From a virus: a stretch of 64,000 nt of DNA. Each line of letters begins with the position of its first letter. Position 1 is the first letter of the stretch. A program made the translations under genes and the position numbers. The stretch spans positions 1-64,000 of IMG/VR virus record IMGVR_UViG_3300025133_000092. The stretch is one strand, 5' to 3'. The notes below the pieces were generated by a model. It was not told the origin of the DNA, searched no databases, and saw only the letters and a program-made list of their open reading frames with translations. This document shows, in pieces, positions 2,694-32,366 of this stretch.

Positions 2694-2986
2694 GGTCTGC
2701 CCTCTCGAAGCTGGATCGCCCGCTCTTGGAGCCAAGCCGTCCAGTCGTTTTGCCCGCGGTCGCAGGCGATGTGCATGTGGAAGCAGAAGCGTTCTTGGTC
2801 GGGGTCCTCGTTGGCGATGCACTCCCGATCCTTCTGGAACTCCCGCTGACGCGCGCTCATCCAGATGATGAACTCGTGCATCGTGGTGGAGCCTTGGAAG
2901 CGCTCGGCGACGCTGGCGCGCTCCTGCTCAGGGGTCAGGCCGAGGGAGTCGCAGTAGGCGATGTACCTCGGATTCCAGTCGGTCAC
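2657..2986 (-). CDS. Hypothetical protein (109 aa)
   Basis: Unrecognised small soluble protein, rich in Trp, Gln and charged residues (FIIWMSARQREF, ERFCFHMHIACD). It starts with GTG overlapping the previous stop (GTGA). Its 3' end overlaps the nucleotidyltransferase start by 37 bases, more than the 1-4 bases usual here, so the last dozen residues may be non-native (indel) or the true boundary may differ. Confidence 0.5.
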   Translation of the reverse strand: MTDWNPRYIAYCDSLGLTPEQERASVAERFQGSTTMHEFIIWMSARQREFQKDRECIANEDPDQERFCFHMHIACDRGQNDWTAWLQERAIQLREGRPWTSISGSTPTC

Positions 2987-9263: not shown

Positions 9264-10100
9264 CTACGATTTCCTCCAGCGACGGAGCTCGTCCAGGGCG
9301 GCCTGCTTCCGCATGGCGCTCTGCCGCATCTGGTTGGCGTGGCGGCCCACGTGCCGCATCTGCTCCCGGGCATCGTGGCTGCCTGCCGCCGCCCGCTGGT
9401 AGGTCGGGCTCGCCTTCATCCGCCGCACGCGCCGGTGGTACTGCTTGGGCAGCCCCTTCTGCACGATGGAGAGCATGCCCTCTCGGCCGAGGATGCGGTT
9501 CTTCGTGTACGAGAGGATGCCGGGCCCGCCTTCACCGATGAGGTGCGGCATGCCCTGGATGGTGGTCTTGGCGATGTCGCCCAGGCCGGGGATGTCCTTG
9601 CCCTTTCTTCCGCCCCCGCCGCCACCCGACCGCCGAGCTTCTCGGATCTTCGCCAGCTCGAGCTTTCGCTTGTGCATCAGCATCGTCGTCGACGCGTGAT
9701 CGTCCTCGTGCATGACCCAGTGCGAGTCGTGATCGTGCACGTGGTTGTTGTGGTAGGGGTGCCTCCAGCTGCCGAACTGCCGCTGTCCCGATTCCGGCAC
9801 GGCGATGTTGACCGGCACGAAGCCCAGGTGCTTCTCGAGGTCCTGCTTGGTCAGCACGTGCTTCGGGACGGCCACGCGGTACTTGCCTGCCCCGGTGAGC
9901 ACGCCTTCGGTTCGCATGCGTCCGTGGAGGTTCTTGAAGACGCGGTGCGCTCGAGCCTTCTGCCGGCGCTGGGTCCAGTACTCTGAGGGGCCCTCCTTCA
10001 GCTCGCTCTCGCCCGAGGAGGGGGAGGCGCCTTCGGGGGACTCCTCTACGGGAGCGGCGAGCTTGAAGATCTCCTCTGCGAGGGCGTTTCGGATGATCAC
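9264..10100 (-). CDS. Candidate virion-associated protein with FKLAAP leader (278 aa)
   Basis: Starts at GTG and opens with ALAEEIFKLAAPVEESP, a short helix ending in the FKLAAP motif also found at the start of the helicase at 57.1-58.6 kb and, in variant form, in several virion-block proteins. The centre is His-rich (HPYHNNHVHDHDSHW), then Gly-rich, with a basic C terminus. If the leader marks packaged or processed proteins, this is a virion protein encoded outside the main block. No family recognised. Confidence 0.5.
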   Translation of the reverse strand: MIIRNALAEEIFKLAAPVEESPEGASPSSGESELKEGPSEYWTQRRQKARAHRVFKNLHGRMRTEGVLTGAGKYRVAVPKHVLTKQDLEKHLGFVPVNIAVPESGQRQFGSWRHPYHNNHVHDHDSHWVMHEDDHASTTMLMHKRKLELAKIREARRSGGGGGGRKGKDIPGLGDIAKTTIQGMPHLIGEGGPGILSYTKNRILGREGMLSIVQKGLPKQYHRRVRRMKASPTYQRAAAGSHDAREQMRHVGRHANQMRQSAMRKQAALDELRRWRKS

Positions 10101-12304
10101 ACCAGCCTCCTGTACCGGAACCCCGGCTCCTTCACGTGCTTGTGGAAGTGCTTGCCGTGGGACTTCGCCTTCAGCACGCCGGCGTAGGTCTCCGGGGAGA
10201 CCCCGGAGTACCTGTACAGGCCACCCTTGGCGAACTCCACGTGCATCGTCTTCCTGCTGGGGTTGTACGCCACGGTGCCCAGGTTGGTCGAGACCAGGTC
10301 CTCCTTGCCCTTGCGCTTCTCCCAGCTGTCGATGTGCTTCTGCTTCGTCTTGGAGACGACGACGGGCTTGTTGAGTGGGAGCAGGGCGGCCGTCTTCCCG
10401 CGCAGCAGTGCTGAGGCCACCTTTGTGAGGGGCCCGTGCTCTTTGATCTTCCTGTAGCTCTCCCGGTCCGTTTTGAACGTCCCAGCTGCGTAGGCCAAAT
10501 CCTCTAGCGTGGAGGTTCCCCGCTGCCTTGAGCGCTTCGCGACACGGAACAGCCTTCTCACGGGCCCTGTCCCCATGACCAGCCGTTGATCGGCTGCGGC
10601 CAGAGACCTCGGGTGTTGGAGAATCCCCTTGGGGAAACCCTCCAGCAACACTCGCTTCCCTGCCCTGTGGGCCGCAAGTGCCTGCTCATCCTTCTCCTGG
10701 CGAATGCGGTCCCTCGTCTCTTTCGAGGGGCTGCTGTACCCGCCCTTCCCGTCTGGGCTGCCCGTGTCTGTCCCCAGGACCAAGTCGAACTTGCCCCGAT
10801 GCTTCTCGGCCCAAGTGCTCTTGCCTGCTCCCATGCCGCCCGTGAGGATGGTGATGTGCGCCTTCTTCGTGCGGGTCATCTGCTCCAGCGTTACCCCGGC
10901 CTCCTCGAGCTTCTTGAGGTCGTCGGGGTCGTTCTTCTCGGGGTGCAAGCCCTGGAAGGAGGGGATGCGGAGCTTGCCGCTGGGGTACTTGCCCATCGAG
11001 GTGATCTTGGCTGTGCGCCCGATGAGGAGCTCGGGCTTCTCGTGGGCCAGCCGGCGGAAGTCGTCGGTGAAGCCGGTGCCGACACGACTGACGTTGCCCT
11101 TGGGGTCCTTGACCAGCACGCCGCCGACGTGCGTGCCCTCGTACTTGCCCCCCTTGGTCTTGAAGAAGCCGACGATCTCCAGGTCCTCGTCCGGCTTGAA
11201 CTTGTACTTCTTCGGCCTCGTGCCCTCGGCGAGATCCCACTCGACGATGCCCTCATCGGTGAGCGGGTGCTCCTTGCGCCGGATGGCCTCCAGCATCTGG
11301 AGCTTCTCCGACTTCGTCCGGGCCACTGGGGTCCTCTTGAGGCCGGGGAACTCCGCCTGGACCTGCTTCAGCACTCGCAGCTTCTCGGAGTAGGGCGCAG
11401 CCGACATGTCCTTGCCGCGGTACCTGGCGACGTCGAAGGTCATGACCTCGAGCGGACCGTGCTCTTCCTGCCCCTTCCGGGACTTCCAGACCCCTGCGTT
11501 GAGCAGGCCGCTGACTCGCTCAGCAGGGAGAGGTCGCCCTCCTCCATGCGGGCGTGCGAAGATCTCCCCACGGACGATCGTGCCATCCAGGTGAGAGGGG
11601 ACCTTCTTGTCCATCAGGCCGGGGACCTTGTGGGAGTGCTCGATCAGGCCAGTGCGCCGCGCCTTCGCCGGCCTGTGTGAGAAGGCACGGATCGGCCTCC
11701 CCTTCTCCAGCACGAAGACGTTGTGAGACCCGTCCGCCTTCGGCGCCCAGACCTTGCCCTCATCCTCGGGGGTCAGCTGGGCCTCGCGCTTCTCCTCCTT
11801 GTACTTGGGCTTGGGCATGGCGGGTGTGCGCCCCGAGTGCCGAGTCACGTTCTGCAGCAGCCAGTTCTTGTCCTTGGTGCGCCGCAGGATGTACTCGTCG
11901 TGCCCCGAGCCGCGGTAGTGGTTGAACTTGATCTTGTCGGGATCTGCGTGGAAGACCTCCGCCTGGTCCCGCAGATGCCGCTTCACGGTCCCAGCGCCGT
12001 ACCCCGAGGGGATCTTCCCGCGGAAGTCCATGTACTCCAAGGTGTGGTCGCCTTGCTGTACCGCGAGCACGGGGCGCTCCCCGGGGCCGGGGAGCTTCGC
12101 CTTGGGCAACGCCCAGGAGTGCGCGACACCCGTCGAGGGGTCTCCCAACCTAAGATCAAAGTGCCTGCCCGCTCGATGAGCGTCGTGGTCTTGTACTGCC
12201 AGTTCCCAGGTCTGGCGCCCCTTGACCGCAGGGAGACCCCGGGCCCGACCTTTCTCAGGTAGGCCCGGGGCGAACTCCTTCAGCGGTTTGAGATCACGCG
12301 GCAC
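10097..12304 (-). CDS. Multidomain 3'-phosphoesterase / ATP-dependent DNA ligase / P-loop kinase / KTSC protein
   Basis: A 735-residue fusion. Residues about 30-155 match the LigD 3'-phosphoesterase domain (HDAHRAGRHFDLRL, IPSGYGAGTV). KADG at 189-192 is the nucleotidyltransferase Lys motif of an ATP-dependent ligase, with EGIVEWDL and a C-terminal OB-like region to about 450. GGMGAGKST (489-497) begins a zeta-toxin or polynucleotide-kinase-like P-loop domain. The last 65 residues (GTVAYNPSRKTMHVEF, ending FRYRRL) are a KTSC domain. Together these suggest end-cleaning, phosphorylation and sealing of DNA breaks in one chain. It starts at GTG with GAGG upstream. I have not seen this domain order before. 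Confidence 0.8.
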   Translation of the reverse strand: MPRDLKPLKEFAPGLPEKGRARGLPAVKGRQTWELAVQDHDAHRAGRHFDLRLGDPSTGVAHSWALPKAKLPGPGERPVLAVQQGDHTLEYMDFRGKIPSGYGAGTVKRHLRDQAEVFHADPDKIKFNHYRGSGHDEYILRRTKDKNWLLQNVTRHSGRTPAMPKPKYKEEKREAQLTPEDEGKVWAPKADGSHNVFVLEKGRPIRAFSHRPAKARRTGLIEHSHKVPGLMDKKVPSHLDGTIVRGEIFARPHGGGRPLPAERVSGLLNAGVWKSRKGQEEHGPLEVMTFDVARYRGKDMSAAPYSEKLRVLKQVQAEFPGLKRTPVARTKSEKLQMLEAIRRKEHPLTDEGIVEWDLAEGTRPKKYKFKPDEDLEIVGFFKTKGGKYEGTHVGGVLVKDPKGNVSRVGTGFTDDFRRLAHEKPELLIGRTAKITSMGKYPSGKLRIPSFQGLHPEKNDPDDLKKLEEAGVTLEQMTRTKKAHITILTGGMGAGKSTWAEKHRGKFDLVLGTDTGSPDGKGGYSSPSKETRDRIRQEKDEQALAAHRAGKRVLLEGFPKGILQHPRSLAAADQRLVMGTGPVRRLFRVAKRSRQRGTSTLEDLAYAAGTFKTDRESYRKIKEHGPLTKVASALLRGKTAALLPLNKPVVVSKTKQKHIDSWEKRKGKEDLVSTNLGTVAYNPSRKTMHVEFAKGGLYRYSGVSPETYAGVLKAKSHGKHFHKHVKEPGFRYRRLV

Positions 12305-13939: not shown

Positions 13940-14842
13940 ATGCTCGGCACACTGGTCCTTGAGATCGTCCTGGCCGCGATGTCCCTGCTCCTGCTGCTGT
14001 CGGGAGTACGATCTCGACAGCTGTCCTCCCCCCGAAGGAAGGCCTACCTCGGCTCAGCAGCCCTGACCTTCCTCGTGGCGATGAGCTTGCAGCTGGAACT
14101 GCTTGGATGGGGGACGGCTTCCGAGGTGACTCGGCTCTTCGCCGCGGCGCTCACGCTGAGCGCCATCGCCGGCATCCGCGTGCTGACGCACCACTACGAG
14201 CAGGAAGAGAACGGCGTCAAGGAGACCGTGCGGGAGGAGCACGAGAAGGCCCGCCGTGATCGCCTCGAGCACAGCGCGGGCCTCGGACAACGACTGGAGA
14301 CTGTCGAGAGGAACCTGAGAGTCGCCCAGGAGCGACTCATCGCGCAAGCGATGGCCGGCAAGGCAACGGTCGAGCGGCTACAGGCCCAGGAACGAGCCAT
14401 CACATCGAGCCCGGAAATCGATGCGGTCCTGGCCTCTCCTCCGCAGCACGCAACCATCAACGGCTGGCTGAAGACGCTGGATCTGATGGACGACTGCCTG
14501 GCGTGGGTGGTGGACGCGGACGGCGTGAACATCCGGGTCGCGGGAGGCGGTGCGCAGAAGTGGTTCGGCTTCGCGTCGGCAGATGCCGTCGGTACTCGGC
14601 TGGTTGACTGGGGAGAGCCCTCGCACATCTCCGCCTTCGACGCCCTCAAGAAGAACCCGTCGGCGCCCCCGATCACGAAGCTGCTGAACTTCAACCACTA
14701 CCCCAACGCAGGCACCTGGCTGACCTGTTTCGGGTCCGTTCTCACGGACGGGGAGTTCGACGGTATGTATGGGGTGGCCCTGCGCGCTCCCGGTATGTGC
14801 CTGAAGTGCGTTGCCCCCCTTCCCTCGCCGCGATCGAGATGA
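13940..14842 (+). CDS. Membrane protein with coiled coil and PAS-like domain (300 aa)
   Basis: Three hydrophobic segments (about residues 2-21, 38-55 and 63-80) place the N terminus in the inner membrane. A charged coiled coil follows (about 84-155). Residues about 178-290 (CLAWVVDADGVNIRVAGGG, then a WFGF helix and closing strands) fit a PAS sensor fold. GGAG lies 7 bases before the ATG. This layout resembles a sensory or signalling membrane protein and is unusual for a phage. It heads a short plus-strand operon of membrane and coiled-coil genes. No kinase or cyclase domain is attached. Confidence 0.6.
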   Translation: MLGTLVLEIVLAAMSLLLLLSGVRSRQLSSPRRKAYLGSAALTFLVAMSLQLELLGWGTASEVTRLFAAALTLSAIAGIRVLTHHYEQEENGVKETVREEHEKARRDRLEHSAGLGQRLETVERNLRVAQERLIAQAMAGKATVERLQAQERAITSSPEIDAVLASPPQHATINGWLKTLDLMDDCLAWVVDADGVNIRVAGGGAQKWFGFASADAVGTRLVDWGEPSHISAFDALKKNPSAPPITKLLNFNHYPNAGTWLTCFGSVLTDGEFDGMYGVALRAPGMCLKCVAPLPSPRSR

Positions 14843-14845
14843 TCC

Positions 14846-15355
14846 ATGTCAGAGCCCGAAGAGCCGGTCGGGGTCTCCCTGGAGATCCCCACACAGGAGG
14901 AGGTAGAGCAGTTTCTCGTAGAGATCTCCCAGGAGTATCCGCGACGGGCTCGACTGCTGCGGGCCTACCTGTTCGCCACCGGGGAAGGGGAAGACCCCGA
15001 GGCCCGCTGGGTGCGGCTGCTCCTCGAGATGAAGAAGGTCGCCGTGCAGTCCCAGCAGGCCAACGAGAGCTTGCTGGCGTGGTTGAGGGGCCAAGCGCCT
15101 GTGCAACGGGAGATCATCGCCCTCCTCAAGGAGGCCGAGGACCAGCGTGAACGGCTGGTGAAGGCCGGGGAGAGGCAGGCCGCTGCCGCGGCCGACAAGG
15201 CGGACCAGAAGAAGGACTTGGCCAGGGACATCCGGGCAGGTGTAGTAGAACTCTGGAACAACAAGCCCTTCCAGTTCTTGTTGATGGGCGGGGTCTACTT
15301 CGTGCTCGACAAGATGGGCGCCGTGGCCTGGGTGCTGAAGAGACTCACCGAGTAG
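14846..15355 (+). CDS. Coiled-coil protein with C-terminal membrane segment (169 aa)
   Basis: Acidic N terminus, a long charged helix with many Gln and Glu (VAVQSQQANESLLAWLR, LLKEAEDQRERLVKAGERQ) and one hydrophobic segment near the end (FQFLLMGGVYFVLD). A tail-anchored inner-membrane protein is likely. Together with the next two genes it could form part of a lysis or envelope complex, but no holin, endolysin or spanin motif is decisive. Confidence 0.5.
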   Translation: MSEPEEPVGVSLEIPTQEEVEQFLVEISQEYPRRARLLRAYLFATGEGEDPEARWVRLLLEMKKVAVQSQQANESLLAWLRGQAPVQREIIALLKEAEDQRERLVKAGERQAAAAADKADQKKDLARDIRAGVVELWNNKPFQFLLMGGVYFVLDKMGAVAWVLKRLTE

Positions 15356-15363
15356 GAGTAGCC

Positions 15364-15648
15364 GTGTCCGACGACAAACCAGTGATGCTTCCTCCGTGGG
15401 TGCGGGGCCTCGGCAAGTACGCGGGAGTCGTCCTCCCGATGGTGTTCGCCGGCTACCTGGCCTTCCACGACCTGCAGCAGGACTTCGTGCTCGAGCAGGC
15501 GAAGGTCGTGGCCCTGACGGAGCGCGTCAAGTCCCTGGAGACCGCGAAGCAGGCCCGAGAGGTACGCGACGCGCGCCTCGACGAGAGCCTGACCTACATC
15601 CGCAAATCCTTGGACGGGCTGACCCTCGCGGTCGCTCAGATCGAGTAG
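15364..15648 (+). CDS. Small membrane protein with coiled coil (94 aa), spanin- or holin-like
   Basis: Starts at GTG 8 bases after the previous stop, with GGAGTAG upstream. One N-terminal membrane segment (YAGVVLPMVFAGYLAF) is followed by a heptad-rich helix (VVALTERVKSLETAKQ). This is the topology of an inner-membrane spanin (Rz-like) or a class III holin. The next gene encodes an exported protein, as expected for a spanin pair, but it lacks a lipobox. Confidence 0.45.
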   Translation: MSDDKPVMLPPWVRGLGKYAGVVLPMVFAGYLAFHDLQQDFVLEQAKVVALTERVKSLETAKQAREVRDARLDESLTYIRKSLDGLTLAVAQIE

Positions 15649-15651
15649 ATC

Positions 15652-16068
15652 ATGCGCAAACTGACCATTCTCCTCGTGCTCGCCCTCGCCCTCATCTGGA
15701 CGGCCGCCTGGGCCCAGTGGCTCGACGACACCTACCGGGAGGGGCCGCCCTTCCTCGTCGTGGATGACGACGACTCGGCCTCCGACGATGACGACTCGGC
15801 TGCTCCGCCCCAGGAGAACGCTCCTCCGCTGATGAAGGTGCAGGAGCGGCTGGAGGCGCAGGAGCAGCAGCTCCAGCAGATGAGCAGCGACATCGACGCG
15901 CTCAACGCCTACTTGGCGGACAAGGCCGCGGTGAAGTGCGGGGAAGCCCCTGAGGGGTTCGAGCAGCCGCCGCTCGAGTTCTACAAGAAGGAGGGGATCA
16001 CGGCTCCGTTGACGAAGGCGCCTTCGGTGCCGGCGGAGACTCCTCCGGCTCCCTCTTCGGAGGAGTGA
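15652..16068 (+). CDS. Secreted protein with Asp-rich linker (138 aa)
   Basis: Has a signal peptide (KLTILLVLALALIWTAAWA, likely cut after AWA) and no lipobox Cys. After it comes VVDDDDSASDDDDSAAPP, a low-complexity acidic linker of a type I associate with Myxococcota exported proteins. A heptad helix (VQERLEAQEQQLQQM) and a Pro-rich tail follow. It may be a periplasmic partner of the preceding membrane protein. Its 3' end overlaps the convergent minus-strand gene by 71 bases. Confidence 0.5.
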   Translation: MRKLTILLVLALALIWTAAWAQWLDDTYREGPPFLVVDDDDSASDDDDSAAPPQENAPPLMKVQERLEAQEQQLQQMSSDIDALNAYLADKAAVKCGEAPEGFEQPPLEFYKKEGITAPLTKAPSVPAETPPAPSSEE

Positions 16069-17416: not shown

Positions 17417-18215
17417 GGTCCTCCCTCTCCTTCCCGGCCTGCTGGAGCCGGGCGCTGGCGGACACCGGCCGCCGTAGACCGGGGGGCCGCACCTGCGTCG
17501 CCCCCTTCACCTTGCGTGCCTGCCTCGCCTTCGTCTGCCTGTGGGCAGAGTCGGTGTAGCCGACCGTCCGTCCGTAGATGGCGACCACCTCGTCGCAGGC
17601 CGCACCGTTGAAGCCGGCCTTGATGATGGCCTGGAGCAGCTTGCGATCCTCTCCACGCCCGCTGGGCCACCACACCCCGCTCTTCTCGCCAACGACGCCG
17701 GCGCGGTGCATGAACTCGTCAGGGATGACGGTGCCCCGCACCCAGTGAAGCCCGTTCGGTTCCCCGGGACCGGGCCGCGGCTCCTTGACCAGGCGGGCCA
17801 CAACTCGGCCGTCCAGGTCTGGGTGCCCCACGGTGTGCCGGATGAAGAGGGTGCGCCCCCAGCAGAAGTCGAGCTGGGGGCGGTGCCGCAGGAACTCGAT
17901 GCGTGCTTCGATGGAGCGGTAGGTCAGGACGTCGTCGTCGTCGAGGTACGCGATGTACTCTCCGCGCGCCATCTTCACGGCCTCGTTCCGCTGCAGCCCT
18001 CCGGACAACCCCAGTGGGATGGGGAGTTGCAGCACCCTCAGTCGATCATCCATCCGCAGGAGCTCGTTGAGGACCTCCGCAGTCTGGTCCTGCGAGGCGT
18101 CGTCGACCACGATGACTTCGGTGTCCGAGATCGACTGAGACAACGCGCTGTTGACCGCGCGGGCTAGGGCGGCGTCGCGGTTGCAGGTGGGGATGATGAT
18201 CGAGGCGATCGGCAT
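17394..18215 (-). CDS. Family 2 glycosyltransferase
   Basis: A 273-residue GT-A fold enzyme. ASIIIPTCNRDAALARAV is the N-terminal nucleotide-sugar strand, VIVVDDASQDQT follows, LDDDD (91-95) supplies the metal-binding DXD, and GRGED (186-190) the general-base region typical of GT2. It transfers a sugar from a nucleotide-sugar donor; the acceptor could be phage DNA, a virion protein or the host envelope. The C-terminal 50 residues are basic and variable. It is the first gene of a minus-strand unit reading from the divergent region at 18.2 kb. Confidence 0.85.
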   Translation of the reverse strand: MPIASIIIPTCNRDAALARAVNSALSQSISDTEVIVVDDASQDQTAEVLNELLRMDDRLRVLQLPIPLGLSGGLQRNEAVKMARGEYIAYLDDDDVLTYRSIEARIEFLRHRPQLDFCWGRTLFIRHTVGHPDLDGRVVARLVKEPRPGPGEPNGLHWVRGTVIPDEFMHRAGVVGEKSGVWWPSGRGEDRKLLQAIIKAGFNGAACDEVVAIYGRTVGYTDSAHRQTKARQARKVKGATQVRPPGLRRPVSASARLQQAGKEREDHVRRGDH

Positions 18216-18291
18216 GCGAGAGACTCTACCCCGAAAGAACAGCGGAGATTGCGCAATAAGGATCTCGCCACTCTTACTACCGGAGAGATCC
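18216..18291. promoter_or_regulatory. Divergent promoter region with ATTGCGCAAT palindrome
   Basis: A 76-base gap between the glycosyltransferase unit (minus) and the AAA+ unit (plus). It contains the perfect palindrome ATTGCGCAAT at 18248-18257, a candidate operator or shared -35 (TTGCGC on both strands). GTAGAGTC on the minus strand (18222-18229) is near the glycosyltransferase start. GGAGAGATCC precedes the plus-strand TTG start. Confidence 0.4.
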
Positions 18292-19290
18292 TTGTCTGAT
18301 CAGGCTGCCTACGAGCTGCGCCGCATGCCGCTCGAGTCCTACTTCCAGGCGGAAGTCCCCTACGTCGATTGCACCGGCCTTCTGGGGTTCCTCCGCCAGT
18401 CCACCTTCCACGACCCCCTGCTCGTCGTCGGCCCCACGGGCATGGCGAAGAGCATGTCCGTCTACGCCCTCGCTCAGGAGACGGGGCTGCCCATCATCGA
18501 GTACAGCTGCACCGAAGAGACCCGCGACCTCGACCTCATCGGCGCCTTCGGCCTCGAGGGGGACACCTCGTTCTTCGGGCTCGGAGCCCTCACCACGGCC
18601 ATCGAAGTGGCCAACGAGATGCACGAGCGCTTCGTCGCCAAGACCGAGGCCGGCGACGGTGCCATCCTGCTCATCAACGAGGTCAACGCCCTGCGGCCCC
18701 AGACCCAGAAGACGCTGAACCCGCTCCTGGACTTCCAGGGGACGATCAACGTCCACAAGCTGGGCCGCGCCTTCAGCCTCGACATCGGCGCGAAGCTCTG
18801 GGTCGTGATGACCATGAACCCCAGCGCCTACGGAGGCACCAACGCCCTGAACGACGACTTCAAGCGGCGCGTGCAGCCCATCTTCCTGGACTACCCGCCC
18901 AAGGAGCAAGAGCTGAAGATCCTGATGGGGCTGCGGGCCTCGGCCTGCGACGACGACAAGGCCATCCCGGACGCCGTCTTCGCCGAGAAGGTCGCGGGCG
19001 ACAAGCCCTTCGTCTCGATGCTGCTGGAGCTCGCCGGCGACACCCGGACGGGGACGTTCGAGTACTCGCTGTCCACGTCCGACCTGCACCAGATCTGCCG
19101 CAACGCAGCACTCTGGGGGGTGCCCAAGGCGCTGCTCCTGTCCACCTTCAAGTTCGAGGAAGCGCAGCAGCGCGAGTTCTACGTCAAGAAGGTGCAGGCG
19201 CGCATGGGGGTCGACGTCGCCAGCCTCAACGTGCTGGACGTGCCCAAGGCCAAGCCGAAGCCCAAGAAGCGCCGGAAGGCGACTCCCTGA
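18292..19290 (+). CDS. CobS/MoxR-like AAA+ ATPase
   Basis: A 332-residue protein with GPTGMAKS (47-54), a Walker A of the MoxR/CobS type with Ala in place of the usual Gly; LLINEVN (126-132) as Walker B with Asn replacing the first acidic residue; and MTMNPSAYGG as sensor 1. It starts at TTG with GGAGAG about 4 bases upstream; no ATG or GTG fits the conserved start. MoxR-type ATPases work with VWA-domain partners, and such a partner is encoded at 22312-24159 in the same operon. Large myophages carry cobS/cobT-like pairs of unknown role, probably remodelling a protein or metal centre. Confidence 0.8.
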   Translation: MSDQAAYELRRMPLESYFQAEVPYVDCTGLLGFLRQSTFHDPLLVVGPTGMAKSMSVYALAQETGLPIIEYSCTEETRDLDLIGAFGLEGDTSFFGLGALTTAIEVANEMHERFVAKTEAGDGAILLINEVNALRPQTQKTLNPLLDFQGTINVHKLGRAFSLDIGAKLWVVMTMNPSAYGGTNALNDDFKRRVQPIFLDYPPKEQELKILMGLRASACDDDKAIPDAVFAEKVAGDKPFVSMLLELAGDTRTGTFEYSLSTSDLHQICRNAALWGVPKALLLSTFKFEEAQQREFYVKKVQARMGVDVASLNVLDVPKAKPKPKKRRKATP

Positions 19291-22311: not shown

Positions 22312-24159
22312 GTGGCCGACTTCACTCTCCCAGCGTCGCTGCGCGGACCCGCGTGGCAGACGAAGGACGCTTGCTACAAGCTCGTCAACACCACCAGCAA
22401 AGCCCTCGGCCAGCCCATCTGGCTCCGCGACGCTCCCTTCGGCAGCACCGACGGCCGGCAGGTCAACGTGCCTCTCGCCGACCCCGAGGCATGGCTCGTG
22501 GCGGGCCACGAGCTGAGCCACATCGTCTTCGGCTCGAACATCGAGGCGATGCACCACTTCACCACCAAGCTGGCGGACCGGATCATCACGGACTTCCTGG
22601 CCAAGGGAGACCGCACCCTCTCGGGGCAGACGGAGCCCCTGGCCGCCTTCATCCACCACGTCGTGAACATCCTGGACGACAACCGCGTCGCCTACTGGTG
22701 GGGCCAGTTCAACCCGGGGGACTACGACCTCCTGGTGGCGCGGTGGAAGCGGATCGGCCGAGAGCAGACGGAGGGAGCCAAGAAGGACTTCTTCCAGTTC
22801 ATGCTGAGCTGCATGTTCGGCCAGGCGCCCGCTGACGCAGACGCAGACTTCCTGGCCGTGCAACCAGCCATCGAGCAGGCGTACCTGGACTGCGTCTCCT
22901 CGGACTTCACCTCCTGCATGGCTGCGGCGGCCAAGCTGATGTCCAAGCTGACGAAGCTCCTGGGAGACCGCTTCGCGCAGAAGACGGGAGCCGCCGCTCA
23001 GCCTGCCGGGAACGCCCCGAGCGGTGCCGGGGCAGTGGCCACCCTCTTGGGCGACCCGGGGCAGCAGGATCCCGCGGTGACGCAGGCCGTGGCGCTGCGC
23101 CTCATGGCTCTGCTGGGCCAAGGCGACATCGACCTGCTCAAGAGCCAGGGGCACAGCGACACGCCCGTCGAGGGGTACGTCAAGAAGAAGCTGGACGCCC
23201 ACCGCTTTGACCCTGCAGCGCAGGCTCAGGCTGCTGCAGCCATGGGGGGTTCTCAGCACCTGGACAACCCCGACACCCAGGCCGCGGCGGCTGCCGCCAT
23301 GCTGCAGACCATCGCTGATCTGCAGTCGGGGCAGTCCGACGTCCCCGACAAGGACGAGTGGCTGACGGAGGACGCGAAGGCCAAGGTCCAGCTCCACGAC
23401 ATCCAGGACTCGCAGCTCGTGCCGCGGGTGCTGACGGGAGAGGAGTTGGCGATCACCTCGCGGCTGCACTCGAAGTTCGTCAAGATCCGCGGCAAGCAGC
23501 GCACCCACCTGGACTACGAAGGGACGACGGTGGACATCCAGGCCGCCGTGCAGCGCCGCATGACGAAGGAGGGGCCGATCTTCCGGTCTCCCCGACCTCT
23601 GCCGGGCTTCAAGTACCTGCTCCTGCTCGATGGCTCGGGGTCCGTGGTGGGCTCTCTGTTCGAGCAGGAAGCTCGAGCAGCGCTGCAGCTGGCCAAGGCC
23701 CTGAACTTCCCCGGCGTGGAGGGGCAGGTCTGGATCTACTACGGCGGCTGGGATAGCGAAGTGGTCATCCACCGGATGGGGCACCCCATCCGCAAGATGC
23801 CCGCCAACAACGACAACACGATCCTCGGAGGCTCCACCCCATCACACACCGCCATTCGCGTGGCGGCCCGGGAGCTGATGACGAAGACCGGCTTCCGTCA
23901 GCTCATCCACCTGACCGACGGAGCTCCCACCGGATCGGGGGCCAAGACCCACGTCCGCCGCAACATCATGGAGGCCATGCGCGAAGGAATCCGCGTGCAG
24001 ACCCTCTACGTGGGAGGGCAGATCAGCTACGAAGACGCGATGTTCATGTCCCACTCCACCAAGTTCTTCTCCCAGTGCCCTTGCGATTCCGCCGGGCAGG
24101 CGCTCGTGTCGCTCGGGGAGAAGCTCTTCCACCAGTACCTGACAGGAAAAGCCCGATGA
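22312..24159 (+). CDS. CobT-like VWA-domain protein with HExxH motif
   Basis: A 615-residue protein starting at GTG after GAGGAGG. The N-terminal domain has HELSH (66-70), a zincin-type metal motif that may be structural. A Gln/Ala-rich middle follows. The C-terminal von Willebrand A domain has the MIDAS DGSGS at about 440-444, GGSTPSHTA, and LTDGAP near 534. This is the CobT or VWA partner expected for the MoxR/CobS-like ATPase at the head of the operon. Such pairs act as protein-remodelling or metal-insertion machines; in phages the target is unknown. Confidence 0.75.
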   Translation: MADFTLPASLRGPAWQTKDACYKLVNTTSKALGQPIWLRDAPFGSTDGRQVNVPLADPEAWLVAGHELSHIVFGSNIEAMHHFTTKLADRIITDFLAKGDRTLSGQTEPLAAFIHHVVNILDDNRVAYWWGQFNPGDYDLLVARWKRIGREQTEGAKKDFFQFMLSCMFGQAPADADADFLAVQPAIEQAYLDCVSSDFTSCMAAAAKLMSKLTKLLGDRFAQKTGAAAQPAGNAPSGAGAVATLLGDPGQQDPAVTQAVALRLMALLGQGDIDLLKSQGHSDTPVEGYVKKKLDAHRFDPAAQAQAAAAMGGSQHLDNPDTQAAAAAAMLQTIADLQSGQSDVPDKDEWLTEDAKAKVQLHDIQDSQLVPRVLTGEELAITSRLHSKFVKIRGKQRTHLDYEGTTVDIQAAVQRRMTKEGPIFRSPRPLPGFKYLLLLDGSGSVVGSLFEQEARAALQLAKALNFPGVEGQVWIYYGGWDSEVVIHRMGHPIRKMPANNDNTILGGSTPSHTAIRVAARELMTKTGFRQLIHLTDGAPTGSGAKTHVRRNIMEAMREGIRVQTLYVGGQISYEDAMFMSHSTKFFSQCPCDSAGQALVSLGEKLFHQYLTGKAR

Positions 24160-24584: not shown

Positions 24585-24826
24585 CCCGGGAGCAGTGGCT
24601 CGCCAAGGCCCACCAGCTCTACATGGCCAAGTTCGACCCTCGGAAGGAGGGGAGGCTGTCCATGGCCCTGTTCGACGGAGGCATGGCGGTCTTCCAGTCC
24701 CTGCGCGACGCGCTGAAGGACGTGGGGCCGTTGGAAGACGAGACGCCGTCGCCCCCGGTCGACGAGGCTGACGAGTTCGATGAGCTCTGTCGAGTCGACG
24801 AGGACTTGGCGTGCCCTCCCGAGTGA
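24581..24826 (+). CDS. Hypothetical protein (81 aa)
   Basis: Starts at GTG in a GTGA overlap. A short helical N half (REQWLAKAHQLYMAKF, MAVFQSLRDALKDVG) is followed by an acidic tail. No family recognised. Confidence 0.5.
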   Translation: MTREQWLAKAHQLYMAKFDPRKEGRLSMALFDGGMAVFQSLRDALKDVGPLEDETPSPPVDEADEFDELCRVDEDLACPPE

Positions 24827-25008
24827 TCAACATGTCCCTCCCCAACTCTCGCCTCGTCGACCGTCTTCGGGCGGAAGCGGAGCGGGAGCGGGGGAGGACT
24901 GTCTCCGTCTCGGAGGTGACCAACGCGCTGCTCGACGACGTCCGGGAGCGCCTGGAGCGCGACGATGTGCTCCTGAACACCAAGACCCTGCTGCCCCAGG
25001 AACCTTGA
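24811..25008 (+). CDS. Putative ribbon-helix-helix protein (65 aa)
   Basis: Begins at GTG 24811 (GAGG upstream) or possibly ATG 24832. The pattern SRLVDRLRAEAERERGRTVS followed by SEVTNALLDDVRERL fits a small CopG/Arc-like ribbon-helix-helix DNA-binding protein. It is the last gene before a strong terminator and sits just upstream of the gasdermin-like gene, so it could regulate this unit. Confidence 0.45.
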   Translation: MPSRVINMSLPNSRLVDRLRAEAERERGRTVSVSEVTNALLDDVRERLERDDVLLNTKTLLPQEP

Positions 25009-25013
25009 CCTGT

Positions 25014-25048
25014 CACGCCCTCCCCGTCACGCTGTCGGGGAGGGCGTG
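25014..25048 (+). terminator. Strong hairpin terminator after the CobS/CobT operon
   Basis: A perfect 13-base stem (CACGCCCTCCCCG at 25014-25026 with its complement at 25036-25048) and a 9-base loop lie 6 bases after the last stop of the operon. It isolates the next gene from read-through. Confidence 0.75.
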
Positions 25049-25131
25049 GGTCTGCAGCTCGGCGTACATCTCTCCTCCTCGCGCTGGGACTGATCCCCCG
25101 GACCCGCCCCTCTCTTAGCTTGAGGTGATCC

Positions 25132-25869
25132 GTGAGCCTGCTTCAGCCCCTGCGACGCTTCCTGAAGAAGCACCGGATCTACCTGCTCCGCCTCCCCAGC
25201 GAGGACATCACCCCTGGCACCCTGCTGAACAACCAGGGCGAGGTGCTGCAGCACCTGGCGGACCTGGACTGCTTCCCCGAGGACCTGAGCATCAGCCCGC
25301 CCCTGCAGTCCTCCGCGCTGCTGGACCACTGGACCCACACCGTGTCGGTGCCGAACGCCGGCCTGAAGGTGGGGGTGCCTCAGATCGCCTCCTTGCGTGC
25401 CGGCCTCTCCGTCGGCAAGCAGGTCCAGGTGCAGGTGGGTCCGCTGACCCAGAAGAAGCTGGTGCACGACGAGCTCAACCGCATCGGCGAGCCGGACTAC
25501 CTGACCGATCTGGACTACCTGCAGATGGTCAACTCCTCGCTGGACTGCGGGGACATGCGGGAGGTGGTGCGGCTGATGAAGTCCAGGCGCGCGGGCTTCC
25601 CCGTCGAGCGGCAAGTCGACATCGTCGAGTCGACGGTCTACGCCGAGTGGCTGAAGTTCTCCTTCTACGGAGAGGGGCGGGTGGAACTCGGCATCGAGCT
25701 GGAGCAGGCCGTCCTGCAGGCTGTCCAGGCCGACGTAGAGGCGGGAGTGGACATCGAGTGGACCTCCGAGGGGTCGCTGCTCTGGAAGACGCAGTCGGCC
25801 CTGCCCCTGGGCTTCACGGCGGTCCGCTACGCCTGGTGGAACAAGCGCTTCATCAGCTCCACCTTCTGA
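25132..25869 (+). CDS. Candidate bacterial-gasdermin-like pore-forming protein (245 aa)
   Basis: Starts at GTG with the near-consensus site GAGGTGATCC. The order of motifs resembles bacterial gasdermins as I remember them: an N-terminal helix then LLRLPSEDITPGTLL (18-32), beta-strands and helices through the middle, an amphipathic segment VELGIELEQAVLQAVQADVE, and a closing strand LGFTAVRY (226-233), compared with PLVFGFQAVRL-type endings. Length fits the pore domain, but only 12 residues follow the last strand, so an autoinhibitory C-terminal peptide may be missing. No N-terminal Cys for palmitoylation is present. The gene is alone between two strong terminators, like a phage moron. No protease gene is adjacent. 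The assignment is from memory of the family and needs a structural check. Confidence 0.45.
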   Translation: MSLLQPLRRFLKKHRIYLLRLPSEDITPGTLLNNQGEVLQHLADLDCFPEDLSISPPLQSSALLDHWTHTVSVPNAGLKVGVPQIASLRAGLSVGKQVQVQVGPLTQKKLVHDELNRIGEPDYLTDLDYLQMVNSSLDCGDMREVVRLMKSRRAGFPVERQVDIVESTVYAEWLKFSFYGEGRVELGIELEQAVLQAVQADVEAGVDIEWTSEGSLLWKTQSALPLGFTAVRYAWWNKRFISSTF

Positions 25870-25874
25870 ACGAC

Positions 25875-25905
25875 GAAGGCCCTCGTGGGTCACACGAGGG
25901 CCTTC
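25875..25905. terminator. Bidirectional terminator between gasdermin-like gene and virion block
   Basis: A perfect 13-base stem (GAAGGCCCTCGTG at 25875-25887, complement 25893-25905) with a 5-base loop lies between convergent genes. The GAAGG/CCTTC base gives short A and T stretches on both strands. Confidence 0.8.
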
Positions 25906-25926: not shown

Positions 25927-26685
25927 CTACCCCGGAGGGAATCCTCCCGAGGGGATGGACCCGGAGGGCAGCATGTCCGCGCCGGGGATCAGCTCATCGA
26001 TGCCGCCGCGGATCAGGGCGACCGCGTTGACGTCGATGGGCATCATCCGCTCGAACTGGATCTGCGCCGACTCCTGGATCACCGTGCCCTGCGAGTCCGA
26101 GGCGAGGTTGATCGCCGGGACGTAGCAGGACTCGAGGTACCCGGCCCCCAGGGTGGCCATGTTGCTGTCGCGGAAGTACAGCAGGATGCCGATGGGCTGG
26201 GCGAACAGGTCCGAGGCCAGGTTCAGGAACACGTTCTCGTAGCCCGGCGGGATGACGACGTCGTGCTTGTTGGCGACGCCGGCGATGCCGGGGTTGTCGA
26301 ACATGGCCGCGAACGAGGCCCCCGTGTCGGGGATCAGGTCCTGGTAGTAGGCGTAGAGCACCCGCATCAGCGAGGACCCGTGGTACATGATGCGCGAGAG
26401 CGACATCTGCCCCATGGTCCGGCCGCTGATGAAGTAGCTGCGCTCCGAGCCGACCTCCCAGAACCGGCTGAACTGCCGGTTGTGGGAGAGGTTGAAGTTC
26501 TGCACCACGCCGATGGGGAAGGCGAACTCGGCCGGGGAGCCGAGATCTCCGTTCCCACCTGCCACCGCCGCCAGACGCGGGGGTCCCGCGGCGATGAGGG
26601 TGAAGGCGGCCGACATGAACCGGCCGTCGATCATGCCGCCCTGCACGTAGCTGTCGTAGGGCGACCATCCAGAAAGCTGGGCCAT
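25927..26685 (-). CDS. Probable tail tube protein
   Basis: A 252-residue beta-rich protein (FNLSHNRQFSRFWEVGSER, GILLYFRDSN, SAQIQFERMMPID) located two genes after the sheath in the virion block, where myophages encode the tube. The Gly/Pro-rich tail and repeated short strands suit a tube-type fold. The assignment rests on position and composition, not on a recognised signature. Confidence 0.5.
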   Translation of the reverse strand: MAQLSGWSPYDSYVQGGMIDGRFMSAAFTLIAAGPPRLAAVAGGNGDLGSPAEFAFPIGVVQNFNLSHNRQFSRFWEVGSERSYFISGRTMGQMSLSRIMYHGSSLMRVLYAYYQDLIPDTGASFAAMFDNPGIAGVANKHDVVIPPGYENVFLNLASDLFAQPIGILLYFRDSNMATLGAGYLESCYVPAINLASDSQGTVIQESAQIQFERMMPIDVNAVALIRGGIDELIPGADMLPSGSIPSGGFPPG

Positions 26686-27644: not shown

Positions 27645-27674
27645 TCAGACCACCAGGGTCACGCGGATCTGGCC
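27645..27674 (-). repeat. Second copy of the sheath gene 3' end (codes GQIRVTLVV and stop)
   Basis: Read on the minus strand this encodes GQIRVTLVV then TGA, matching the sheath ending NQIRVTLVV then TAG at 28650-28679. Fifteen bases are identical (27658-27672 and 28663-28677) and the remaining codons differ only synonymously. The HNH gene lies between the two copies. This looks like the original sheath 3' end displaced by insertion of the endonuclease gene. Confidence 0.7.
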
Positions 27675-28603
27675 GATTCCCGATCGAGCAGGTCCTGGAG
27701 CCTCTCCAAGTGAGCCTCACCGCCCGTGGTGTTCTTGGTCAAGCGCTCTTCCAGAAGCCCCAGGGCGGCCTCGATGTCGTCCACGGGCTCTGATCCAGGA
27801 GGGTGCGTGGTCCACTGACGCAGCTGCAGGTTCTCCAGGCGGTTGTCGTCCCGCTTCCCATTGATGTGGTGCACGACCTCCTTCGGGCCAAGAAGTCGGT
27901 CGAGATGGGCCTCCATCACCAGACGGTGCTCCAGGACGTTGCCGTACTTGTCGGCGTTGGGGTGCTCCGGCGCGTGCTTGCGGACGTACCCGCCCGAGGT
28001 CCTCCAGCGGGCCTTCCTTCTGGGCCGTCCCCGAGTCTTGTGCTCTCGGAGCTTGTTGCCCTGCTCGTCAATCAGGCCCGCCTGCTCCTGCCTCCGGTGC
28101 TTCTGGCACATGCCGCGCCTCGTCGGCCGGGAGTGGCAGTCTGGGACGGAACAGGCCAGGCCCTCCGCTGACGGGACCCTCTTCAACTCCCGGAGCCGGA
28201 CTCCGTCCTCATCAATGATCCGGCGATAGTACTGCGCGTAGTGGCGACGGCACATCCGGACTCTTCCATTCTCGATCTCCCTGCCGCACCCCTCCAGCCT
28301 GCACACGCCTTCACGGGAGTGGTTGGCGTGGCGCTCTCTCGCCTCCCCCGAAGCGCCCGACATCCGCCGCTGGTAGTGCTTGCTGCACATCCGACGGGCG
28401 ACGATCGGGTCACCGCAGCCATCGACTTCACAGCCGCCGTCCCGGCCCTGCTTCATGGGCCGCAGCGAGGCACCGCGCTCGTCGATGGCGCCGCGACGGA
28501 GCTGCATGTAGTGCGTGCCGCACATCCCTCTGGACTTCGATGGCTTCTCGCAGCCGTCGAGTTTGCAAGGGGGCTTGATCTTCTTGGGCCGTCCACCGGG
28601 CAT
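27659..28603 (-). CDS. HNH homing endonuclease with four zinc-knuckle repeats
   Basis: A 314-residue protein. Four Cys/His repeats span residues about 13-31, 58-76, 101-121 and 151-169, each of the form CxxxxC, then a loop, then MCxxH (for example CEKPSKSRGMCGTHY). The HNH nuclease core follows: EHRLVMEAHL (226-235), VVHHINGKRDDN (243-254) and N258. GGAGG precedes the ATG. It sits between the sheath and tail genes, a normal place for a free-standing homing endonuclease, and its stop region overlaps the displaced sheath 3' end. The knuckles probably recognise the DNA target. Confidence 0.85.
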   Translation of the reverse strand: MPGGRPKKIKPPCKLDGCEKPSKSRGMCGTHYMQLRRGAIDERGASLRPMKQGRDGGCEVDGCGDPIVARRMCSKHYQRRMSGASGEARERHANHSREGVCRLEGCGREIENGRVRMCRRHYAQYYRRIIDEDGVRLRELKRVPSAEGLACSVPDCHSRPTRRGMCQKHRRQEQAGLIDEQGNKLREHKTRGRPRRKARWRTSGGYVRKHAPEHPNADKYGNVLEHRLVMEAHLDRLLGPKEVVHHINGKRDDNRLENLQLRQWTTHPPGSEPVDDIEAALGLLEERLTKNTTGGEAHLERLQDLLDRESARSA

Positions 28604-28649
28604 AGCTACCTCCGAGAGACAGCCTACCACACACCTAGTGGAACTTACG

Positions 28650-31600
28650 CTAGACGACCAAAGTCACGCGGATCTGGTTCGCCGGGTAGAGCGGCGTCAG
28701 GGTCACGTCGACCAGGATGGTGTCGGGGCTCGACTCGTCCTGCAGCACGTTGTTCAGCTGCGCCGCCGCGATGACCTGCAGCCCGTCGGGGCCGAGGAAG
28801 GCCAGCTGGCCCTGGATCACGGTGGCGAGGTTGTTCAGGAACTGCGGGGTGATGTTGAACCGGCCGATCAGGTTCCGCAGCGCGTTCCGCAGGAACTTGG
28901 CCACGAAGTCGACCGCCTTGGTGATGGACAGCTCCCGCTGTTCCACCGAGCTCGTGTCGGTGGAGAGCTGGTGCCGGCACATGACCGCGCCGCCCGACGA
29001 CTGCTGGAAGAGGATGTACACCCCTCCGCCGGCGATCTGGTCGAGCAGGCTCTTCTTGTAGGTGTCGTGCGACCCCTGGACCGCGCTCAGCCCCGAGATG
29101 GGGAAGTTGGTCAGGGGCTGCGCCGGCGGCTGGTGGCCGATCTGCCCCGCCACCGCGGCGGCGGCGTAGTAGGCCGGCACGACGGCGGTGCCGGCGTCGA
29201 GCTCCGCCGACACCGAGTCCGGGAACAGGTAGAACATCCGCCGGTTCAGGTAGTCCGTGGCGGACGCGGCCACCGCGGCGGCACGGGCCGGCAGGTCCGG
29301 GAGGGAGCTGCCGGGGATCAGCAGCTCGTCCCCGCGGATCTTCAGCGCGTAGGCCACGCTGACCAGCGACGAGGTCAGCTGCGTGGTCGTGTAGAAGCCG
29401 TCGTCGTTGTCCGGCGAGGAGAACGAGTTGCGGAACTGCAGCAGCGTCCCGTTGACCAGCGACAGGCTGTAGCGGCGGAAGTCCCCGCCCACGGTCACCT
29501 CGAGGTAGACCCCGTCGTCCGCGTCGAGCGCAGCCGGGTTGAGTCCGGCGGCCACCAGCTGACCCGTGGGGTTCACGTCGATGGTCATCTCGTTGGGGTT
29601 GGCCGTGGAGTCGCCGATGCCCGAGGCCACCGCTGCCGGGAAGGCGCGCGTCGGCGCCTCCGGTGCGATGAGTCCGATGCGCTCGCCCCGCTGCTCCGCC
29701 GCGCTCATGGCGGTGACGTGCGTGTCGAGCACCAGGTGGACCAGCTCGTTCTCCGTCAGCGGAGCCATCGCGTAGACGTCCTTGGCCTCCAGGTAGTCGA
29801 AGGCCCGGGCGTAGCCGTCCAGCGTGCCCTCGGGCTGCGCGGCGCTGACCTCGTCCACCCCGATGCCGGTGATGGCCGTGGTCGGCGAGTTGAGCAGCGC
29901 GAGGTACATGCCCAGGAAGAGCGGGTTCCGCGCGTCGATGGGCTCACCGATGGCCTCGAGGGTCGCCTGGTCCTCGATGGTCAGCAGCTTCTCCACCGCG
30001 GCGGAGGACGAGCTGACATCGAGGCGGAGTGCCTCGTAGGCCACGTACAGACCAGCGGAGGCCGGGACGAACGGGGCGCCGGTCAGGCTGTTGCGCAGGA
30101 TGCCCGCGCCCAGCACCAGGTTGCCGCTGAGGTCCAGGAAGCAGTCCGGGTTCGGGCGGCCCGAGCCGGCGGCCTCGTCGTTCGCCGGCAGGAAGCCGAG
30201 GATCGAGTCCGCCGTCGAAGCCGCGTCCACGTCGATGGACGAGGCCACTCCGCCCAGGGGCGAGGTGAGGCGCATGAAGGTGGTGGAGATCGAGGCGATG
30301 GCCGCCCCGCCGTGGGCGAGGTTGATCGCCGCGACCGCGTCGTCCAGCGAGTCGCTGCCGAAGGTCACCGTGATCGCGTCACCGCCGTCCAGCGAGTGCT
30401 GGAGGGTCGTGCCGCTCAGGGTGCCTGCGCCGGCGACCGGCGCGTTGGTCATGTCCAGGGTGCCGCCACCGCCGGAGTCGTCCGAGACCGCGACGGTGAC
30501 ACCGTCGCCGGACTCGAAGCTGGTGAACACCAGCTCCCCGGTGGCCGCCGCGGGACCGGAGAAGGTGCCGATGCGGATGTTGCCGGCCCAGGCGAGCTGG
30601 TTGGCCTGCAGGTTCAGCTCCGTCGCGAGGTCTGCGAGGGTGGCATCCGCCGCCTCGGCCGCGCCCATGGTGTGGACCTTGGTGAAGGTGCCGCGGCTGT
30701 CCGTCACCACGACCGTCACGGCCGTACCGCTCAGGGTGGCGATGGGCAGGGCGCCGATGGTCCCGCCCGTCTCCGTCGCGGGGGTCCCGTACTCCTGGTC
30801 CTTGCCGGTGTGCGACGTGGCCAGGGCGACCGAGAAGCCCAGCATGGCGTTCGCTGTGCCGGTCGGCAGCACGACGAGGGTCTGGCCGGACCCCGTCTTC
30901 GTGGTCTGCGCGTGGATCCAGACGTTGGCGCCGTCATCGAAGACGTTCCAGGCGTCGATGCCGGGGATGGCGAGGGCGTCCAGGGCCGCCGCGAGCTGCA
31001 CGGTGTTCGCCGCCGTACCCGCGAGGGTGGACGTCACCTGCGTCTGGGAGATCCCGTCGTCGACCAGCTGGGTGATCAGGGTCAGCCCGGCCAGGGCCAG
31101 CGTGCCCGCGAGAGCCGCGCTGGTCAGGCTGCCGTCGCTCTGGACCTCGGCCTTCTGCGCCGCGTTGGCCGCCAGGTTGCCCGTGAGCACGGCGGCCACC
31201 GGGGCGGGGCTCACCGAGCCCCACTGCAGCCCCTGCGCCTCGAACCACACGTTGCGGGGCGCGAAGGGCACCCCGTGGCTCGGCACGTTGACCTCGCGGT
31301 CGTCGTAGAAGCGGGTGGTGGCGTTGCCCTCGTCGTCGAAGGTCGAGAGCGCCGAGTTCAGCTGCGCCATGCGGAAGCGGCTGGCCTGCACCTCGACGAC
31401 CTCCCACCCCGGGTCGACACCGTCGCTCACCATCGCGTCGCCGGCCCGCACCGAGCTGGCCGCCTGCAACGGGATGTCCGCGCCGCCCCCGGTGAAGCTG
31501 AGCAGCGCGGCGTCGGCGTTGGAGATCGTGCCGGCCTCGGTCCAGCGGCCCAGGCCGAGACCCGCGCCTCCCCAGGAACCGGCGACGCCGTTCTGGAACG

Positions 31601-32366
31601 CCTCGCCCTCGAAGAACTCGATCCAGGGGCTGACGAGGTCGCCGTCGGAGTCGTCCTGGGCCCGGTAGCCGGAACCCTCGACCCGGCGGGACTGCGTGTC
31701 GCCGAACATGGCGGTCATGGCGCTGCCGCCCGCCCGGATGTCGATCGAGGAGAGAGCTCCCCAGGTGTTCGAGCGGATCATCACCTCGGAGGCGCCGCCC
31801 ACCACGACGGAGGCCACGTCCTCGCCGACCGCGGCGTTGATGGCCGAGGCCACTTCGGCGGCCGTGGCCACCGGGGCCGCGGCGGAGATGGTGACGGTCA
31901 CGTCCTGGCTGGTGTCCACCGCGCTGGGGCGGTCGAAGGCGAGCACGAGCACATCGCCGTCGGCCAGGGCCCACGGGGTCGTCTCACCGAAGTCGGTGAC
32001 GATGACGGCGCGGCTGGCCACGTTCGAGGCCGCCAGGAAGGCGGAGCCGAAGGGGCTGCCGTCTCCGCGGGGGAGGGCGATGAGGGAGCCGCCGTAGAAG
32101 AGCGACGCCTCGACCGTGTCCTCCTGGATGTCCAGCTCGGAGATGTTGCCACGCGGGTCCGGGAACGAGGACTGGCTCAGGCTGAGGGGGTACTGGCTGT
32201 AGGACGTCGCCAGGGCGTCGGCGCTCAGCAACCCGTCCACCTGCGTCTCGATCACCTGGAAGGCAGGACCGATGATGCACGCCGGCAGCGTCGCGCTGGC
32301 GATGGTGGGGGAGGTGGTCCGGATTTCCTGGATGACGGTGACACCCGGCTGGGGGATGGCAGGCAT
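28650..32366 (-). CDS. Tail sheath protein (very large, 1238 aa)
   Basis: Begins PAIPQPGVTVIQEI, the classic sheath N terminus. The C-terminal third has the family pattern: LYVAYEALRLDV, then NPLFLGMYLALLN, and VVPAYYAAAAVAGQIG before PLTNFPISG. The middle carries several inserted domains (VASAINAAVGEDVASV; AVAAINLAHGGAAIAS) that make it far longer than the usual 400-700 residues and probably form outer sheath decorations. It contracts to drive the tube into the host. The last nine codons are repeated downstream of the HNH gene. SD-like GAGGAGC precedes the ATG. Confidence 0.85.
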   Translation of the reverse strand: MPAIPQPGVTVIQEIRTTSPTIASATLPACIIGPAFQVIETQVDGLLSADALATSYSQYPLSLSQSSFPDPRGNISELDIQEDTVEASLFYGGSLIALPRGDGSPFGSAFLAASNVASRAVIVTDFGETTPWALADGDVLVLAFDRPSAVDTSQDVTVTISAAAPVATAAEVASAINAAVGEDVASVVVGGASEVMIRSNTWGALSSIDIRAGGSAMTAMFGDTQSRRVEGSGYRAQDDSDGDLVSPWIEFFEGEAFQNGVAGSWGGAGLGLGRWTEAGTISNADAALLSFTGGGADIPLQAASSVRAGDAMVSDGVDPGWEVVEVQASRFRMAQLNSALSTFDDEGNATTRFYDDREVNVPSHGVPFAPRNVWFEAQGLQWGSVSPAPVAAVLTGNLAANAAQKAEVQSDGSLTSAALAGTLALAGLTLITQLVDDGISQTQVTSTLAGTAANTVQLAAALDALAIPGIDAWNVFDDGANVWIHAQTTKTGSGQTLVVLPTGTANAMLGFSVALATSHTGKDQEYGTPATETGGTIGALPIATLSGTAVTVVVTDSRGTFTKVHTMGAAEAADATLADLATELNLQANQLAWAGNIRIGTFSGPAAATGELVFTSFESGDGVTVAVSDDSGGGGTLDMTNAPVAGAGTLSGTTLQHSLDGGDAITVTFGSDSLDDAVAAINLAHGGAAIASISTTFMRLTSPLGGVASSIDVDAASTADSILGFLPANDEAAGSGRPNPDCFLDLSGNLVLGAGILRNSLTGAPFVPASAGLYVAYEALRLDVSSSSAAVEKLLTIEDQATLEAIGEPIDARNPLFLGMYLALLNSPTTAITGIGVDEVSAAQPEGTLDGYARAFDYLEAKDVYAMAPLTENELVHLVLDTHVTAMSAAEQRGERIGLIAPEAPTRAFPAAVASGIGDSTANPNEMTIDVNPTGQLVAAGLNPAALDADDGVYLEVTVGGDFRRYSLSLVNGTLLQFRNSFSSPDNDDGFYTTTQLTSSLVSVAYALKIRGDELLIPGSSLPDLPARAAAVAASATDYLNRRMFYLFPDSVSAELDAGTAVVPAYYAAAAVAGQIGHQPPAQPLTNFPISGLSAVQGSHDTYKKSLLDQIAGGGVYILFQQSSGGAVMCRHQLSTDTSSVEQRELSITKAVDFVAKFLRNALRNLIGRFNITPQFLNNLATVIQGQLAFLGPDGLQVIAAAQLNNVLQDESSPDTILVDVTLTPLYPANQIRVTLVV

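Follow-up and report, generated by a model that had tools for sequence, protein, structure and literature searches.

A gene at 25132-25869 on the forward strand of a phage genome encodes a 245-residue protein that we consider, with a probability of roughly 0.87, to be truly homologous to the domain with which bacterial gasdermins (bGSDMs) form pores. The gene lies in a window of 64,000 nucleotides, the whole stretch of DNA analysed here, which is part of a 66,739-bp linear IMG/VR record. Bacterial gasdermins are host anti-phage suicide effectors that are silenced by a C-terminal peptide. The phage protein, judged from its sequence, is a divergent homologue of their pore-forming domain, recognized on profile evidence and scoring under the NCBIfam cut-off, and it does not make up a canonical bGSDM defence system, since the tail, the protease partner and the N-terminal cysteine are all absent. 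No report of a phage-encoded gasdermin, or of a tail-less prokaryotic one, was found in the open-access literature searched. Features of the locus are given below by position in the window.

18205-19290 (+): gene for a CobS-like AAA ATPase
22312-24159 (+): gene for a CobT-like protein with an HExxH motif and a VWA domain, a conserved neighbour that is not gasdermin-specific
25014-25048 (+): hairpin 5' of the gasdermin gene with one mismatch, terminator-like, lacking a T run (z = -5.0)
25117-25131 (+): ribosome-binding region TAGCTTGAGGTGATCC, including the in-frame TGA at 25126-25128, from the sequence
25132-25869 (+): gene encoding the 245-aa gasdermin-like protein without a tail (PADLOC bGSDM, NCBIfam NF051890 and custom profiles)
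25153-25230 (+): N-terminal signature, the basic first helix LRRFLKKHR followed by LLRLPSEDITPGTLL (alignments)
25606-25866 (+): C-terminal half of the pore-forming domain, tail-less, ending 17 residues past the (G/A)F motif (PADLOC stretch and tail count)
25875-25905 (strand not specified): perfect 13-bp hairpin just past the stop codon, between convergent genes, a possible two-way terminator lacking a T run (z = -4.6)
25927-26685 (-): convergent gene for a conserved structural (tail) protein, the anchor for 41 related phage loci

Homology to the gasdermin pore-forming domain

The open reading frame is a genuine gene. Read from the sequence, it starts with GTG at 25132 and stops at 25867-25869, the in-frame TGA two codons 5' of the GTG means that the start cannot lie further upstream, and GC content at the three codon positions (0.67/0.38/0.95) reveals strong coding bias. 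The sequence AGGTGATCC 5' of the frame is similar to the complement of the 16S anti-Shine-Dalgarno, in keeping with the near-consensus ribosome-binding site proposed in the first-pass annotation, and a spurious frame was dismissed given the codon bias and start context. All three motifs from which that annotation had suggested a gasdermin, including LGFTAVRY, are present in the translated protein.

The suggested identity is now backed by three independent profiles. The PADLOC bGSDM profile (PDLC02986) matched two stretches of the protein (E = 3.4e-11, 41 bits), the stronger at residues 159-241, and NCBIfam prok_gasdermin (NF051890) was the top match at 20.3 bits (E = 3.6e-4), confined to residues 11-46 and far below its curated cut-off of 100 bits. 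The proposed search against gasdermin families thus gave a PADLOC match and the first NCBIfam rank, and missed the NCBIfam threshold. Custom profiles were built from 21 bacterial bGSDMs (one from a Gloeothece plasmid, one from an Acidobacteria MAG and the others from the phylum of that MAG), to which were added segments taken from three solved chains, 7n50, 7n51 and 7n52. With profiles of 5, 8 and 24 sequences, the phage protein ranked first at 15.8, 23.6 and 24.5 bits, while the best among 5,239 decoys, comprising shuffles and phage ORFs, reached 5.9, 6.4 and 6.6 bits. A six-sequence profile that included the phage protein recovered every solved bGSDM, and gasdermin D marginally. Pairwise comparisons were weaker: phmmer against the PDB placed the bGSDM chains 8sl0 and 7n51 best, both non-significantly, a single-sequence hhalign comparison reached a probability of 13.6, and searches of the protein against Pfam and PHROGs gave nothing meaningful.

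At 14-18% identity to its bGSDM relatives, the protein is matched at both the N- and C-terminal stretches of the pore-forming domain, in order, indicating homology to known bGSDMs (PDLC02986, NF051890; 7n50, 7n51, 7n52; pore forms 8sl0 and 9v2s) across the whole of that domain. It shares with them the LPxxxIxP motif of the N terminus and, towards the C terminus, the (G/A)F strand; it differs in being phage-encoded and tail-less and in having neither an N-terminal cysteine nor a protease partner. The motif follows the first helix as LLRLPSEDITPGTLL, and its proline P22 is invariant in 25 of 25 aligned sequences. The beta-minus-alpha hydrophobic moment also tracks the family mean (r = 0.38, against 0.31-0.62 for family members left out one at a time). 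With realignment, this value was also reached by 2 of 150 unrelated ORFs and by 2 of 100 shuffles, so that the amphipathic-strand pattern gives modest, indirect support for a gasdermin fold. The alignment further places a 15-residue insertion in the middle of the phage domain. Queries of phages, plasmids, IMG/VR and GTDB contigs with the phage protein found no close relatives, and alignment-based pattern scans of IMG/VR likewise recovered none, the insensitivity of such scans making this weak evidence of absence.

Among the other sequences surveyed, an Acidobacteria locus (L064:3379-5473) carries a bacterial bGSDM-protease pair, in which a subtilase gene comes after that of the bGSDM, and at a further locus (L067) a bGSDM adjoins a caspase-like (CHAT-type) protein assigned by motif only. 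Faint bGSDM matches in two genomes (G008, locus L019; G051, locus L061) covered 31 and 30 profile positions and were judged to be chance, the former sitting in an unrelated-looking ORF.

Absence of the inhibitory tail, the lipid-anchor cysteine and the protease

The chain of the phage protein extends 17 residues beyond the (G/A)F motif, the last conserved one, compared with 45-77 in all 21 bacterial bGSDMs and, by arithmetic from chain lengths and alignments, about 22 and 25 in the pore-form constructs 8sl0 and 9v2s. Since this is fewer than in the solved pore-form constructs, the inhibitory peptide is absent, as the first-pass annotation had supposed. The end of the protein is natural and hides no frameshifted tail, because a hairpin begins 5 nt past the stop codon; a frameshifted or truncated tail was ruled out on this ground, the read-through match extending into hairpin sequence. 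As the whole pore-forming domain is covered before the frame stops, the gene would encode a natural counterpart of the cleaved, active domain, and we infer that the protein could work like it. Known bGSDMs deprived of the C-terminal peptide become growth-arresting (PMC10989679).

The phage protein contains no cysteine before C47, while an N-terminal cysteine occurs in 12 of the 21 relatives, for some of which the start codon was chosen by hand. In bGSDMs that possess a palmitoyl cysteine, its removal reduces pore formation. Most bGSDMs are palmitoylated at this position (PMC9612521), and the very basic first helix LRRFLKKHR of the phage protein suggests that it could stand in for the lipid anchor.

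The absence of a protease neighbour, also claimed earlier, holds: no protease family is encoded nearby, and the CobT-like HExxH protein encoded upstream is not gasdermin-specific. This protein was rejected as an activating protease, since it is conserved in relatives where no gasdermin was detected and is thus not a dedicated gasdermin protease.

Phage genome, gene neighbourhood and transcription unit

The phage setting in which the gene had been placed is confirmed by a large terminase (phrog_675, E = 2.8e-56), a major head protein, a head maturation protease, a helicase and a tail sheath in the record, and a bacterial chimera was rejected because phage genes conserved in relatives flank the gene on both sides. 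Related phages were gathered through the terminase (at most 87% identity) and the adjacent structural protein (41 loci, at most 65%). Named isolates among them, Salmonella phage Arash and Vibrio phages D69, D148 and D181, are distant and about 180-187 kb in size, within a range of about 170-200 kb for relatives, so that the record is probably about one third of a genome. Homologues of the CobS-like and CobT-like genes each occupy the same place in 12 related loci and, where the gene order was read, face the tail gene convergently; the junction was compared in 8 loci. The gasdermin gene sits exactly at this junction between the CobS/CobT-like cluster and the convergent tail genes. Profile and sequence searches of 55 records of related phages, many of which are fragmentary, detected no gasdermin, and the closest relative by terminase may not span the locus. 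The gasdermin gene is therefore an accessory gene between conserved blocks. The small gene at 24811-25008 is comparable with the CobT-adjacent small gene of relatives by position only, its proposed homology having been dropped because shuffled sequences scored as high.

The two perfect hairpin terminators described earlier are in part upheld. The downstream stem-loop, GAAGGCCCTCGTG-GGTCA-CACGAGGGCCTTC, is perfect, while the upstream one has a mismatch; a T run is absent after both and neither was reported by the terminator scan, so that their designation as terminators is only a tentative one. A promoter scan of the 83-nt leader found no sigma-70-like promoter. The gene is likely its own transcription unit. 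Its accessory placement and its insulation by hairpins would fit a moron, and would also fit a toxic product kept under tight control. The suggestion of a moron gains from the accessory position between conserved genes and the failure to detect the gene in the 55 records (many fragmentary).

Several other genes of this phage can be noted. The CobS-like/CobT-like pair looks like a core and unexplained module of the phage group. Among the tail genes, that for the tail sheath protein (28650-32366, reverse strand; 1238 aa) encodes a product of which the last 180 residues match the tail sheath family and more than half is extra sequence, and the gene at 27659-28630 (reverse strand) encodes an HNH endonuclease with repeated cysteine-rich motifs, absent from this place in most relatives and probably a homing gene. 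A single protein encoded at 10097-12304 (reverse strand) fuses a LigD 3'-phosphoesterase domain, an ATP-dependent DNA ligase and a KTSC domain; an RlaP-like nucleotidyltransferase of the RNA repair type is encoded at 1578-2822 (reverse strand) and a DNA methyltransferase (phrog_116, E = 7.8e-90) at 59283-60875 (forward strand).

Possible roles in the infected cell

The role that we consider the best explanation, at a little short of even odds, is that of a natively active gasdermin domain serving as a holin-like lysis or killing effector, which would open holes in the inner membrane late in infection. Given that the protein ends about where a protease-activated bGSDM ends, it should need no cleavage. 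Produced late from its own insulated unit, it could use the basic first helix, in place of the palmitate of other bGSDMs, to attach to the inner leaflet of the cytoplasmic membrane of the host, and then oligomerise into wide pores, resulting in holin-like lysis or killing by the phage. A 2022 essay drew a functional analogy between bacterial gasdermins and phage holins, and pointed out that gasdermins act from the cytoplasm, the same side as holins, and that active Bax/Bak can substitute for a phage holin (PMC9612521). The proposed shared job is to open the cytoplasmic membrane from within by a protein of the phage; unlike holins, the phage gasdermin has no transmembrane-like windows and no match to a holin family, and a beta-barrel pore would be expected. 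Counting against a holin-like function are the 14-18% identity, the absent palmitoyl cysteine and the lack of an identified late promoter, together with the orientation of the gene, which is co-directional with the non-structural cluster and not with the structural genes. The more specific scenario, in which the phage acquired a gasdermin of bacterial origin, discarded the inhibitory peptide and now employs the remaining domain as its holin, is put forward tentatively; if correct, it would define a gasdermin-class lysis protein directly linking phage lysis to pyroptosis-type pores.

The main rival, in our estimate an unlikely one, is that the protein counters the defence by host gasdermins as a dominant-negative blocker. 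The captured domain would co-assemble with and poison the pores of host gasdermins, or occupy their protease, and thereby block abortive infection; its divergence and missing palmitoyl cysteine would suit such a function, and protease exosites have been suggested in the N-terminal domain of bacterial gasdermins (PMC9612521). A viral precedent exists in poxvirus A47, which dampens inflammatory caspases and pyroptosis, and vaccinia A47 is also a gasdermin gene captured by a virus (PMC10715236), but it is homologous to the regulatory C-terminal domain, the opposite half, whereas the phage protein matches the pore-forming domain only. A protease decoy, moreover, needs the cleaved region that the phage protein lacks, and in a sample of 396 genomes from one phylum only 4 carried bGSDMs. 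Loss of pore formation, with the domain either degenerate or turned to another use in the virion or in membrane binding, appears quite unlikely: low identity, a score far under the NCBIfam cut-off, the want of close relatives and the mid-domain insertion would accord with it, but the frame is open and strongly coding-biased with a good start context, the amphipathic-strand pattern tracks the family (r = 0.38), and the match takes in the second half of the domain, beyond the N-terminal motif.

Improbable in our view, too, is a moron that kills on superinfection or kills competitors, harmless until another phage or a partner subunit appears, in the manner of the fungal RCD-1 pair. TrichoGSDM and Neurospora RCD-1 likewise consist of the gasdermin N-terminal domain alone, of about 250 residues with no cleavable repressor, and such gasdermins are under partner- or dimer-based control in Neurospora and Trichoplax (PMC12547243). 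The moron-like gene position and the cysteines C47 and C139, which could permit a disulfide dimer, would allow for something similar. These proteins are, however, eukaryotic and controlled by disulfide dimers or allelic partners, and no such control is known for the phage protein; the record contains no partner, sensor or second gasdermin gene and no sign of a temperate phage.

A phage gasdermin would add either a new class to the lysis proteins of phages or a new type to their means of anti-defence, and a phage with the pore-forming half alone makes the gasdermin-holin analogy directly testable. Being a minimal gasdermin that occurs in nature, it would also reveal which elements are enough to form pores when palmitate and cleavage are dispensed with.

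As to other lysis genes, the scan of window proteins found no recognizable holin or endolysin, which speaks for the holin-like role; against it, a normal lysis cassette may sit elsewhere, since the record probably lacks about two thirds of the genome. Four consecutive small genes of membrane or coiled-coil character at 13940-16068 (forward strand) could form a lysis or envelope cassette, and a weak Rz-spanin match at 13940-14842 hints at a normal lysis cassette.
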